Below are positions 6,383 through 9,370 of a stretch of 64,000 bases of DNA, piece by piece (position 1 is the stretch's first letter; each line of letters opens with the position of its first letter). A program made the translations under genes and the position numbers. Under the pieces are notes generated by a model. It was given only the letters and a program-made list of their open reading frames with translations. It had not been told where the DNA came from and did no database searches. Source of the stretch: Actinomycetota bacterium (GTDB taxonomy: Bacteria > Actinomycetota > Actinomycetes > Propionibacteriales > Propionibacteriaceae); assembly GCA_020161015.1 (NCBI GenBank), contig JAIUOT010000057.1:1-64000 (forward strand), written 5' to 3'.

Positions 6383-7192
6383 TCAGCGGACCACGAGGGC
6401 GTTCAGCTCGCCGACCGCGAGGGCCCGGGTGGCGGTGTAGCTGCCGGGAAGGCTCCCCGAGGCGCCCAGCGCCGACCAGCCGATCCGCCAGTTGGTGGTC
6501 GCGGTGACCGTGTAGCTGCCCTTCGGCAGTGACGCCTTCTCGTAGGTGTAGCCGCAGTCCGGAGAGGCCGTTCCGGGCCTGGCCGTGCGGGGGTAGGCGC
6601 GGGTGGCCGTGCAGGTCACGGTGTGGCCGTCCCCCATGTCGAAGGTGGTCGAGAGCCAGGTCGCACGCAGCGTGAACGTGATGCCGTACGCCCGCACCCT
6701 GCTGGTGACGGTTCGGGGGCCGTCCGTCCACAGCCACAGCGGGTAGCCGACAGCGGCCATCTTCCACTCGTTCGCCTCCGGGTCAGGACCGAATTGCGGG
6801 GTGGGGTCGGGCAGTTGCAGCCGCACGATCAGCGTGCGCGCCATCGCGCTCAGGTCGAGCATCAACTGCGCCCGCGACGGCTTCGTGCTCTCCGTCGGCG
6901 TGGTGCACGAGAAGGCCTGGTTCATCCGTCGGCAGGCTCCGATGAACGCGCGCCACTGTTCAGCGGTGAGCTTGGGTTCTGGGGAGTTGCTCGGCGCTTT
7001 CGCACGATTGTCGGATTCTCCCGAGCCTCCGCTAGCCTTTCGTCGCGGTCGCGAAATATCTAGGCGACCTTGGTAGCTACCTTGGCTGCCTTCAACAGTC
7101 ACGTCTCCCGATCCGCCGTCAGCGGTGGCCATTGGTGCGGGACCGAGGGCCACCAGACCCGCTAACACCAAAGCCATGGTCAACCTGCGCAC
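6383..7192 (-). CDS. secreted protein of unknown function
   Basis: 269 residues with a clear Sec signal peptide (MRRLTMALVLAGLVALGPAPMATADGG). After a Ser/Gly/Lys-rich linker comes a conserved-looking globular part with LWLWTDGPRTVTSRVRAYG, DMGDGHTVTCTATRAYP and SPDCGYTYEKASLPKGSYTVTATTNWRIGW. I recognise this pattern only as a secreted actinobacterial family without assigned function. The GTG start is preceded by AGGAGG and overlaps the end of the upstream lipoprotein gene by 13 bases, so the two are translationally coupled. An in-frame ATG at 7177 is the alternative start. Cys residues in the mature part could form disulfides. Confidence 0.75.
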   Translation of the reverse strand: MRRLTMALVLAGLVALGPAPMATADGGSGDVTVEGSQGSYQGRLDISRPRRKASGGSGESDNRAKAPSNSPEPKLTAEQWRAFIGACRRMNQAFSCTTPTESTKPSRAQLMLDLSAMARTLIVRLQLPDPTPQFGPDPEANEWKMAAVGYPLWLWTDGPRTVTSRVRAYGITFTLRATWLSTTFDMGDGHTVTCTATRAYPRTARPGTASPDCGYTYEKASLPKGSYTVTATTNWRIGWSALGASGSLPGSYTATRALAVGELNALVVR

Positions 7193-7767
7193 TTGCCCTC
7201 CTCCTGACCATCGGCGCCTTGGATCTTCAGAACGCCGTCAAACCGGCCGAAGTAGAGCAGATCCTCAATCAAATACCCCGGACCGACCTTCTTGCCGTGC
7301 TCAAGAACCGTTGTTGACCGCGCGTCGACGCAAGCTGTCATTGCCACGATCGAAGACTCCTTGGATACCCCGGCTCTGCGCTGAATGGACACAAGTCGGA
7401 TCTCACCACCCTCCAGCCGCCGAGAGTCCGCCTTCAGTGACCGGTACAAAGCCATCGAGTCGCTTAGGAAGGCCCCTGTTGTTGTTTCAAGGAGCGTCTG
7501 AGTTGGTTCCGCGACCCCACCGGAACGGAAGATCCGAACGTCCTCGGCGAAGAACCTCCGGTACACAGCCTCGGCCTCGGCGTAGAGCTTGTCCTTGGCC
7601 ACCATCTCGTCGTACTGCTGCTGCGAGCAGCTGAACTCCGCGCCTCCGGCCTCGGGCGTGCACGCGTAGGTGGGCACCGGCGTCGGAGGGGGCGCGGCCG
7701 GCTGGCACCCCGCCAGAAGGCAGGCAGCGAACAGTGTCACTGCGAGTCGCCCGGGCCAAGACAGCAT
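7180..7767 (-). CDS. lipoprotein of unknown function
   Basis: 195-residue lipoprotein: signal peptide MLSWPGRLAVTLFAACLLAGC with lipobox LAGC (Cys21), a Pro-rich linker, then a soluble domain of about 150 residues (YDEMVAKDKLYAEAEAVYRRFFAEDVRIFRSGG..., MTACVDARSTTVLEHGKKVGPG). The domain shape resembles SnoaL/NTF2-like lipoproteins, but that is a guess. ATG at 7767 is chosen because AGGAGGT sits just upstream; a GTG at 7800 would put 11 residues before the signal. First gene of a two-gene unit with the secreted protein at 6383-7192. Divergent from the DnaA-box region. Confidence 0.75.
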   Translation of the reverse strand: MLSWPGRLAVTLFAACLLAGCQPAAPPPTPVPTYACTPEAGGAEFSCSQQQYDEMVAKDKLYAEAEAVYRRFFAEDVRIFRSGGVAEPTQTLLETTTGAFLSDSMALYRSLKADSRRLEGGEIRLVSIQRRAGVSKESSIVAMTACVDARSTTVLEHGKKVGPGYLIEDLLYFGRFDGVLKIQGADGQEEGKCAG

Positions 7768-7833
7768 GGGTACCTCCTGGGGGTGGCAGGAGTCTGGCAC
7801 AGCCGCACCCCCTCGAAACAGGCCCCGAGGCGG

Positions 7834-7977
7834 TTATCCACACCAATCCCCGGAAAGTCGTGCACTTGTCCACAACCGCCGGGCGACGGGCGCGCGGATG
7901 GCTCCAGCTCCGGCTGATGTCAAGGGCAGGAGGCCGAATGTGGACAACTTCGTCCATTCAAAACCCCTTGTGGATAA
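7834..7977. promoter_or_regulatory. cluster of four DnaA-box-like 9-mers, two facing two
   Basis: TTATCCACA at 7834-7842 and TTGTCCACA at 7866-7874 on the plus strand; the same two 9-mers inverted (TGTGGACAA at 7939-7947, TGTGGATAA at 7969-7977). The first matches the DnaA-box consensus exactly. Outer and inner boxes form a nested symmetry, with start-to-start spacings of 32 and 30 bases on the two sides. The cluster lies in the 259-base region between the lipoprotein and the DUF222-HNH gene, about 40 bases upstream of the latter's -10 hexamer. It could bind DnaA or a protein that mimics its specificity. Confidence 0.7.
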
Positions 7978-8014
7978 CCACTTTCCGGGTGCAGGAACTG
8001 TCAGTGGGGGCTCT

Positions 8015-8020
8015 TAGCGT
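8015..8020 (+). promoter_or_regulatory. -10 hexamer of the DUF222-HNH gene
   Basis: TAGCGT, 6 bases before the ATG at 8027, with no Shine-Dalgarno: a leaderless-type promoter just downstream of the DnaA-box-like cluster. Confidence 0.5.
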
Positions 8021-8026
8021 GAGGTT

Positions 8027-9370
8027 ATGGAAGCGGAGCTCGAGCACCTGTCCGACGGTGAGTTGCTCACCGTCATCGGGCGTGCCCTCGACGTCCTGCT
8101 GTCCGACCGCACGCCCGCTCCGGACGACCGACAGCTGCTCACGCTCCTTCGCGCCTCGCTCGGGATCGGTGCCCGGCTGGAGGCATGGCAGTCCGCTCTG
8201 GCGGCGCGCGCCGAGGCGACGGAGGCCGCGTGGCGCGAGCACGGAACCTCGACCTCGACGTGGCTGGCGGACGCGGCGAACCTCACCCGCCGAGAGGCCG
8301 CCCGGCTCGTCGCCTCTGGCCAGGGACTGCAACGCTTCGCGGCCGTGGGACGGGCGCTGTCCGCCGGCAGCGTCCTTCCGGGCCAGGCCGGAGCGATCAC
8401 CGGGGTGCTCGACGGGCTGTCCGAGGACCTGCCCCCCGGATCCCTCGACGAGGCCGAGCAGCTCATGCTCGGGTTCGCGGCGAGCCACAACTCCACCGAA
8501 CTGCGGCGTCTCGGGCACCGGCTGCTGGAGGTGCTCGACCCGGTGGGCGCCGAGCAGCGGGACGCCGCCCGGCTGGAGCGGGAGCACCGGCTCGCTATGC
8601 GCTCGCGCCACCTGACCTTCGCCCACGACCACCACGGGTCGGTGCTCTTCCACGGCAGCCTTCCGTCGGCCGAGGCCGAGCCGTTCATCCGCATCATCGA
8701 CGCGTACGCCGCTGCGGCCCGGCGCGGACTGGACCGGGTCGACCCGGCCGCCGAGCACCTCACCCCCGCGATGTGGCGGGCTGATGCGCTGCTGGCGATG
8801 GTCGCCCAGCACTCCCAGCAGTCGCTCGCCCCCTCGCACGGGGGTGACCGGCCGCGCGTGGTGGTGACGGTGTCCTACGACACCCTCGCCACCGCGGCGC
8901 GGGATCGGGGGCTCCTGGCCGGCTCCGCGATCGGCGGACGCGAGCCCGTCCCCGCGTCGGTGCTGCGGCAGTGGCTGTGCGACGCCGACGTGCTCCCCGC
9001 GGTGCTCGGGGGTCCGTCCGAGGTGCTCGACGTCGGACGCGCCCAGCGGCTGGTGACACCGCCGATCAGGGCGGCGCTCGAAGTCAGGGACGACGGCTGC
9101 GTCTTCCCCGGCTGCGACAAGCCGCCCAGCGCCTGTCACGCCCACCACATCGTTCCGTGGTGGGCGGGAGGACGGACGGCGCTCGACAACCTGCTGCTCG
9201 TGTGCGCGCACCACCACGGCATCGTCGAGCCGGGCCACGACCCCACCGCGGACCGCTGGCAGGCGCGCCTCGGCGCGGATGGCGTGCCCGAGGTGCTGCC
9301 GCCGCTGCGCGTCGATCCTCGCCGGAGACCACGCCGGCACACCCGGTTCCTGAGCGCCGTGAGGAGGTAG
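8027..9370 (+). CDS. DUF222 / HNH endonuclease domain protein (13E12-repeat type)
   Basis: 447 residues. The N-terminal two thirds is the helical DUF222 region (ARLEAWQSALAARAEATEAAWREHG, WLADAANLTRREAARLV, MWRADALLAMV). The C-terminal HNH fold lies near residues 348-400: CVFPGC, CHAHHIVPWWAGGRTALDNLLLVCAHHHGIVE, giving paired Cys ligands, the catalytic His pair and the Asn. These proteins are multicopy in many actinobacteria and associated with the mycobacterial REP13E12 repeats; their role is unknown. The gene stands alone, follows the DnaA-box-like cluster, and is followed by 308 non-coding bases, consistent with an inserted unit. I see no terminal repeats or target duplication. Confidence 0.88.
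   Translation: MEAELEHLSDGELLTVIGRALDVLLSDRTPAPDDRQLLTLLRASLGIGARLEAWQSALAARAEATEAAWREHGTSTSTWLADAANLTRREAARLVASGQGLQRFAAVGRALSAGSVLPGQAGAITGVLDGLSEDLPPGSLDEAEQLMLGFAASHNSTELRRLGHRLLEVLDPVGAEQRDAARLEREHRLAMRSRHLTFAHDHHGSVLFHGSLPSAEAEPFIRIIDAYAAAARRGLDRVDPAAEHLTPAMWRADALLAMVAQHSQQSLAPSHGGDRPRVVVTVSYDTLATAARDRGLLAGSAIGGREPVPASVLRQWLCDADVLPAVLGGPSEVLDVGRAQRLVTPPIRAALEVRDDGCVFPGCDKPPSACHAHHIVPWWAGGRTALDNLLLVCAHHHGIVEPGHDPTADRWQARLGADGVPEVLPPLRVDPRRRPRRHTRFLSAVRR

Follow-up and report, generated by a model that had tools for sequence, protein, structure and literature searches.

The stretch of DNA analysed here (the window) covers 64 kb at a GC content of 72.5% and belongs to a 3.67 Mb draft genome in 65 contigs (G000), whose named near relatives are Propionicimonas, Micropruina and metagenome assemblies labelled Propionibacteriaceae. 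To the right of the region of interest lies a gene for a protein of 447 aa (8027..9370, + strand, ATG at 8027). To its left, on the other strand, LP1 encodes a lipoprotein-like protein of 195 aa (7180..7767, − strand, start ATG at 7767) behind a presumed ribosome-binding site, AGGAGGT (7772..7778, − strand), and overlaps LP2 (6383..7192, − strand), which encodes a secreted-protein-like product of 269 aa and probably shares an operon with it. Start codons throughout are our own choices. Between LP1 and the 447-aa gene we found four matches to TTRTCCACA: box 1 (TTATCCACA, 7834..7842, + strand) and box 2 (TTGTCCACA, 7866..7874, + strand), followed by box 3 (TTGTCCACA, 7939..7947, − strand) and box 4 (TTATCCACA, 7969..7977, − strand, in the context CTTGTGGATAAC). 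Counted from the LP1 start, box 1 is the proximal promoter box (−75, minus-oriented relative to LP1) and box 2 the distal one (−107); counted from the start of the 447-aa gene, box 4 is proximal (−58) and box 3 distal (−88). The initial annotation had read this arrangement as four nested, inverted sites with start-to-start spacings of 32 and 30 and an 11-mer shared by the outer pair, all of which we recovered: the gaps amount to 23 and 21 bp, and the 11-mer, GGTTATCCACA, occupies 7832-7842, with its inverted copy at 7969-7979.

These are the only TTRTCCACA matches in the whole window, for which 100 dinucleotide-preserving shuffles yield a mean of 0.07 matches and a maximum of 1, so that the box density is indeed non-random, as had been proposed. 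The complete draft genome contains 27 exact sites, against 10 for a reversed-pattern control, and outside the window cluster they occur singly or in twos. The cluster is the densest group of exact boxes in the genome and exceeds the dnaA region that we read (4.6 kb on contig C39; L012, L013), where this GC-rich genome has only two exact boxes.

The identification of the rightward gene as DUF222-HNH was correct, since both Pfam domains score over their cut-offs (DUF222, 97.6 bits against 24.4; HNH, 25 bits against 21.4). Its HNH residues are intact, and C358, C363, H373, H374, N388, C393, H396 and H397 are invariant in 31 sequences. Among solved structures the only matches, to IscB and Cas8f-HNH, were weak and concerned the HNH part, and a PADLOC scan of five proteins for defence systems gave no match. 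The sequence preceding the ATG reads ACTGTCAGTGGGGGCTCTTAGCGTGAGGTTATG and contains the −10-like TANNNT hexamer TAGCGT (8015..8020, + strand), six bases before the start codon. Leaderless starts are common in Actinobacteria, and the closeness of this hexamer to the ATG suggests a leaderless promoter, of which TGTCAG (7999..8004, + strand), seen by eye before many DUF222 genes, is probably a further part. Beside many DUF222 genes we also noticed by eye REP-like palindromes, for example CCCGGCG-A-GCCGGGATCTCC or GGTCGAGCCTGTCGAGACC (L105-L109, L079, L090, L094, L095, L099).

To place these boxes among other DUF222 promoters, we drew on 80 named DUF222 loci, of which 66 served for upstream counts and 14 were excluded for being cut at or near the match or for being extra copies of a species or genus already included. 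A further 69 matches, none of them partial, came from the upper part of the DUF222 hit list; two loci, L074 and L077, had no upstream sequence. The resulting 133 upstreams were thinned to 113 at 85% identity. In this sample of nearest relatives, which is not a random one, an exact box starts at −100..−45 in 33 of 113 distinct upstreams, when a Markov control gives a mean of 0.07 and a maximum of 2 in 300 runs. The interval −150..0 contains 2.36 boxes per kb, compared with 0.049 per kb in −1000..−150, the latter figure resting on 3 boxes in the 72 regions of sufficient length. Other DUF222 genes do therefore share the boxes, and they do so at a fixed position, mostly −56..−62 and −73..−90. Sorted by identity to the window protein, an exact box at −100..−45 was found in 12/29 (≥54%), 1/7 (47-53%), 18/54 (41-46%), 0/8 (38-40%) and 2/15 (≤37%) upstreams. 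The 80 upstreams without an exact box include some of proteins 62-64% identical. In several close copies lacking boxes (L040, L041, L063-L065) we saw by eye GTGCA...TGCAC-like repeats upstream instead, as if the operator had been exchanged. The two further DUF222 copies of G000, which has three, have no exact box nearby.

Within the subfamily of the window gene, minus-oriented boxes recur at about −88 and about −58 (L032, L037, L039, L042), one of them as TCATCCACA in L032 and both as ATATCCACA in L037. Conservation at orthologous loci, on which the initial annotation had staked its proposal, is thus borne out for the register of the boxes but not for their surroundings: in the close homologues L032-L042, the flanks available (up to about 1.5 kb) contain none of the neighbours of the window gene (thiE, GGPPS, LP). 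In a more distant subfamily (about 41-47% identity) a divergent arrangement is frequent, with boxes at about −77 (−) and about −59 (+), and in Micropruina glycogenica the boxes are convergent, at −89 (+) and −57 (−). The 11 Micromonosporaceae loci that we read all lack an exact box at −100..−45. On a tree of 74 proteins, each of at least 330 residues, the exact-box state requires 10 changes, fewer than in any of 500 shuffles, and five of them are forced by well-supported branches. The state is therefore clustered on the DUF222 tree, yet it has been gained or lost repeatedly.

Conservation extends beyond the 9-mer itself. All 11 minus-oriented sites at −58 carry CTTGTGGA, and in 23 plus-oriented DUF222 sites a G precedes the box in 91% and follows it in 83%, with ATTC thereafter. 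We do not count a footprint test on five close promoters as proof, since the box used as anchor makes it circular at that position. A variant was met in genus g27, of the same order and with genomes of 7-9 Mb (L368-L397), where we read 17 loci and located the promoter motif in 11. There a palindrome, CCTTRTNNAYAAGG, takes the proximal position at DUF222 genes; its centre varies and lacks the box core in 4 of the 11 located promoters, and the distal site, TTNTCCACA, lies at −97..−100 in seven of them. The proximal site of the window, CTTGTGGATAAC, is close to this palindrome, which may serve another factor as operator.

A second regulatory site is frequent at the same promoters. The LexA motif of Mycobacterium tuberculosis is given as TCGAACN4GTTCGA in the accessible text of PMC4181829; it precedes lexA in 24 of the 29 loci that we read, with no more than one mismatch. 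Such an SOS box (at most three mismatches) lies at −70..−20 in 47 of 113 DUF222 promoters against 5 of 111 control stretches. The SOS box and an exact DnaA-type box occur together in 21 of the 113 upstreams; 26 have only the former, 12 only the latter and 54 neither. The subfamily with divergent boxes has its SOS box at −47, directly after the box at −59; a LexA site downstream of the proximal box would add DNA-damage control to these promoters. In the window, the best match before the DUF222-HNH gene has six mismatches, beyond the cut-off of three. The other two DUF222 genes of G000 have an SOS box at about −102, with one and two mismatches.

The left pair is conserved with LP1-LP2. At least one exact box is present in 14 of 14 LP1 upstreams, including 7/7 of those reached only by LP2 protein search; these boxes are typically minus-oriented at −74..−81, with a second often at −102..−112. 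LP1-LP2 pairs occur without DUF222 and DUF222 pairs without LP1-LP2; at L188, retrieved by a pair search in 46 genomes, a direct pair precedes LP1-LP2 and there is no DUF222 gene in 3 kb. Because GGPPS adjoins LP2 in G002 and G027 too, LP1-LP2 is probably old at its place beside that gene. No Pfam family exceeds its cut-off for LP1, LP2 or two proteins of the SIG family described below, and of the 824 LP2 homologues the best 120 listed are unnamed or 'hypothetical'. In four other genomes (L323, L324, L325, L326), LP1-LP2 or LP2 homologues lie a few kb from a DUF222 gene, so the families may be linked by more than the operator.

This separate conservation of the left pair, with LP1-LP2, and of the right pair, with DUF222-HNH, leads us to reject the single symmetric cluster that had been described, and with it any one palindromic element. 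LP1-LP2 starts to the left on the other strand and DUF222-HNH starts to the right; the cluster is therefore the region between divergent genes, and its symmetry is the meeting of two divergent promoters. As judged from sequence, the cluster is a real, conserved operator of promoter type.

Box pairs are found well beyond these two families. About half of the pairs in the 46 genomes face DUF222, LP1, comEA, Tad-type, ssb-type, M23, AbiEi_4, HTH (SIG) or dnaA genes. Genes of comEA type (Pfam SLBB + HHH_3) face pairs at L254, L260, L262 and L424, and by homology at L207; SSB genes (Pfam) at L182, L192, L408, L411 and L420; SAF genes (Pfam) at L197, L252, L403 and L419; ParA genes (Pfam) at L206, L258 and L259, and by homology at L247; T2SSE genes (Pfam) at L191 and L208; M23 genes (Pfam) at L187, L193 and L406, and by homology at L407; and AbiEi_4 genes, with a weak Pfam match, at L196, L421 and L422. 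From their neighbours, judged by eye, and from what is known of such loci, we take the ParA, SAF and T2SSE genes to be CpaE, CpaB and Tad genes. DNA uptake systems are known to include ComEA, type IV/Tad pili and an SSB. It should be noted that the comEA, ssb, SAF, ParA and M23 loci were found via the boxes, and not the boxes via the loci. The dnaA gene itself is preceded by pairs at L415 (G014; direct, 20 bp; DnaA by Pfam) and L261 (G011; divergent, 32 bp; 189 bp upstream). Automatic homology assignment placed 19/42 direct and 18/30 distinct divergent pairs, leaving 23/42 and 12/30, of which five were put by Pfam, contig-end sequence or eye with LP1 (L194, L203), AbiEi_4 (L196) and DUF222 (L242, L249).

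The HTH genes, which are sigma-like and form the SIG family, have a conserved divergent pair (L006, L025, L248, L253, L398, L417), which lies 81-105 bp ahead of the start in those measured and is preceded in L006 and L248 by TTTGTCAAGGGGTTTTG. The complete Micropruina glycogenica chromosome has eight exact pairs within 40 bp, at DUF222 genes (three) and at LP1-LP2, the HTH gene SIG, SAF, DUF4244 and an IS200-like transposase gene (one each). In the last case (L402, Y1_Tnp) a direct pair 30 bp apart lies in front of the gene. In G000, 15 of the 27 exact sites are at the window cluster (four), SIG genes (five), dnaA (two) and four further genes with one each, namely comEA, M23, ParA/CpaE-like and AbiEi_4 (start uncertain); the remaining 12 lie elsewhere, some within open frames. 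The comEA gene (L023) combines an exact box at −89 with a one-mismatch box at −60; the M23 gene (L004) has one with one mismatch at −79 and an exact one at −61; and the ParA/CpaE-like gene (L027) carries such sites, so that the operator is present at DNA-uptake-type genes of the window's own genome. In leaderless-looking genes the proximal box is at −59..−62 for comEA (5/5), M23 (4/4), AbiEi_4 (2/3) and ParA/CpaE type (2/3); for ssb, SAF, SIG, LP1 and others it is further up than −62.

The distances within pairs follow the helical repeat. Centre spacings of the 42 direct pairs in the 46 genomes are 15 (one), 18-20, 27-32 and 40-41, with none at 21-26 or 33-39, and those of 39 divergent pairs are 15-20, 25-29, 32 (one) and 39-40; gaps between boxes range from 6 to 32 bp over the 81 pairs. 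None of 2000 uniform sets was as periodic, at about 11 bp, as these 81 pairs. Homologous promoters are not independent, so the spacings, compiled by hand, were collapsed, keeping a single value for each gene class and spacing, after which 0 of 3000 nulls for direct and 2 of 3000 for divergent pairs were as periodic. Collapsed inverted spacings with convergent pairs mixed in show no periodicity (1186 and 2097 of 3000 nulls as high). Within one kind of gene the spacing jumps by about one turn: 15, 19, 26, 27 and 29 for comEA, 18, 27, 28 and 39 for the ParA/CpaE type, and 16, 27 and 40 for AbiEi_4. At DUF222 genes and at those comEA-, M23-, AbiEi_4- and ParA/CpaE-type genes that were measured, the second box sits some two to four turns of the helix above the one near −60.

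On the best reading of these data, the pairs would serve as operators for a regulon of DNA uptake and DNA processing, with DnaA as the likely binder or possibly another regulator of the same specificity. Because the same paired sites recur at DNA-uptake-type and ssb genes, one shared control is likely. For the window, we propose that the cluster consists of two back-to-back pairs of DnaA-type boxes and that DnaA binds each of them and switches the adjoining genes on together with DNA-uptake genes, to which we assign a probability of about one half. Two molecules bound to a pair would sit on the same side of the DNA and could cooperate. Their place would be adjacent to RNA polymerase and immediately above the −35 region of a leaderless promoter, with DnaA as presumed binder and activator, and the genes so controlled would form a competence-type regulon (DNA uptake and processing) that includes this DUF222-HNH copy. 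Among the roles suggested in the initial annotation, a regulatory site with DnaA-like specificity appears to fit best, given the fixed register at DUF222 genes; the kind of site seems right and its reach wider, for the pairs before comEA-, ssb-, Tad- and M23-type genes speak against a DUF222-specific site.

Several observations bear on the binder. The sequences TTATCCACA and TTGTCCACA match a high-affinity DnaA box of the phylum, and TTGTCCACA is listed as that of Streptomyces coelicolor and M. tuberculosis in the accessible text of PMC4285127. Sites downstream of dnaA in 30 genomes, picked by their TCCACA core, lean to TTATCCACAg. The boxes have the fixed, conserved position upstream of promoters expected of DnaA-regulated promoters. 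The specificity deduced for the binder is partly circular, because the 9-mer defined the sites that were searched. DnaA would also be consistent with the free orientation of the boxes, with the pairs before dnaA in two genomes and with the pairs depending on neither SIG nor a DUF222 hit. Arguing against it are the free-centre palindrome CCTTRTNNAYAAGG of g27, which a DnaA site would not be expected to show, the wide spacing of the boxes compared with E. coli and the conserved flanks beyond the 9-mer.

The pairs could instead be operators of a dedicated actinobacterial competence activator with a DnaA-box-like site, binding a phased pair at −60 and above, which we regard as possible but less likely. 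The flanks around the 9-mer at DUF222 sites, the g27 palindrome and the DNA-uptake character of the gene set all favour such a factor, as does the fact that, in the accessible text of PMC12849477, the competence signal and regulatory cascade of Micrococcus luteus remain unidentified. On the other hand, direct, divergent and convergent orientations would be unusual for one dimeric factor, and no candidate gene emerged, no HTH gene being recognised by eye in seven SAF and ParA/CpaE loci. SIG, an HTH gene with a pair of its own, was considered as general regulator and ruled out, for it is absent from nine genomes that keep boxes at DUF222 genes (G002, G007, G008, G015, G019, G023, G026, G027 and G028).

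Operators, whether of DnaA or of a factor resembling it, are more likely than a titration site, an origin or a nuclease target. That the DUF222-HNH protein recognises or cuts the sites, for autoregulation, homing or as its target, is improbable. The fixed distance between boxes and DUF222 genes at non-orthologous loci (L032-L042) would agree with it, but pairs precede unrelated genes and close DUF222 proteins exist without boxes. Moreover, seven of the 46 genomes gave no DUF222 hit with the window protein, yet five of them have pairs (G005, G011, G013, G014 and G024, of which G011 and G013 are more than 90% complete) and only G020 and G059 lack them, which counts against the HNH target put forward initially. 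A DnaA-titration or replication-timing site of datA or DARS type, another of the initial suggestions, is quite unlikely as well: the cluster does surpass the dnaA region in box density, but each half is conserved separately with its own gene and register, and titration is not needed to account for a fixed promoter register. The chromosomal origin was excluded, as the single dnaA hit is at C39:103344-103544 and the window is on C41. Chance or composition is a negligible explanation, refuted by the controls for the window and for the DUF222 upstreams (0.07 expected in each).

These results bear on the control of competence in Actinobacteria, for which the upstream signals and cascade have yet to be identified even in M. 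luteus (PMC12849477, accessible text). An operator of fixed register and helical spacing, common to comEA-, Tad- and ssb-type and DUF222 genes, supplies a bait sequence and a defined set of genes, with DnaA as the candidate binder. For the many DUF222-HNH copies a function in mismatch repair has been proposed but not proven (PMC4181829, accessible text), and here too the boxes offer a handle. In the open-licence literature searched, nothing in print ties these genes to replication initiation and to LexA; such a connection would be new wiring.

Comparison with known systems places the pairs among them as follows. In Bacillus subtilis, competence genes are preceded by pairs of ComK boxes whose spacings differ by turns of the helix; pairing and helical spacing are alike here, whereas the AT-rich ComK sequence and its regulator are unrelated. 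The elements datA, DARS and oriC are clusters of DnaA boxes, as is the one in the window, which differs in not lying beside dnaA and in having its boxes in promoter register. In the E. coli DnaA regulon defined by ChIP-seq, TTATCCACA-type box pairs likewise lie upstream of genes, there of replication and DNA repair, and DnaA prefers boxes 2-3 bp apart (PMC11317965, accessible text). The candidate DnaA sites described here differ in their gaps of 6-32 bp in steps of about 11 bp, so that they are not double boxes in the E. coli sense, and in their gene set, which comprises DNA-uptake-type, ssb-type, DUF222-HNH and LP1-LP2 genes. The 13E12 genes of M. tuberculosis (REP13E12, DUF222-HNH) belong to the same protein family and are under LexA/SOS control (PMC4181829, PMC5005354), LexA regulation being reported in the accessible part of PMC5005354; the window gene has a box pair and no SOS box, and a box pair is not mentioned for the M. 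tuberculosis genes in the accessible text of the two papers. In M. luteus, competence involves comEA/EC, the SAF gene Mlut_14650 and CpaE, and mutations affecting com expression cluster in a region that covers an HTH gene and a SAF (RcpC/CpaB) gene adjoining CpaE (PMC8467076, PMC12849477; the mutations in PMC8467076). The same kinds of gene head box-bearing loci here, in other families of Actinobacteria, and the accessible text of these two papers describes no shared operator or regulator. Set against all of these, the pairs are sites of an ordinary kind, paired DnaA-type boxes, in what seems to be a new role and arrangement.
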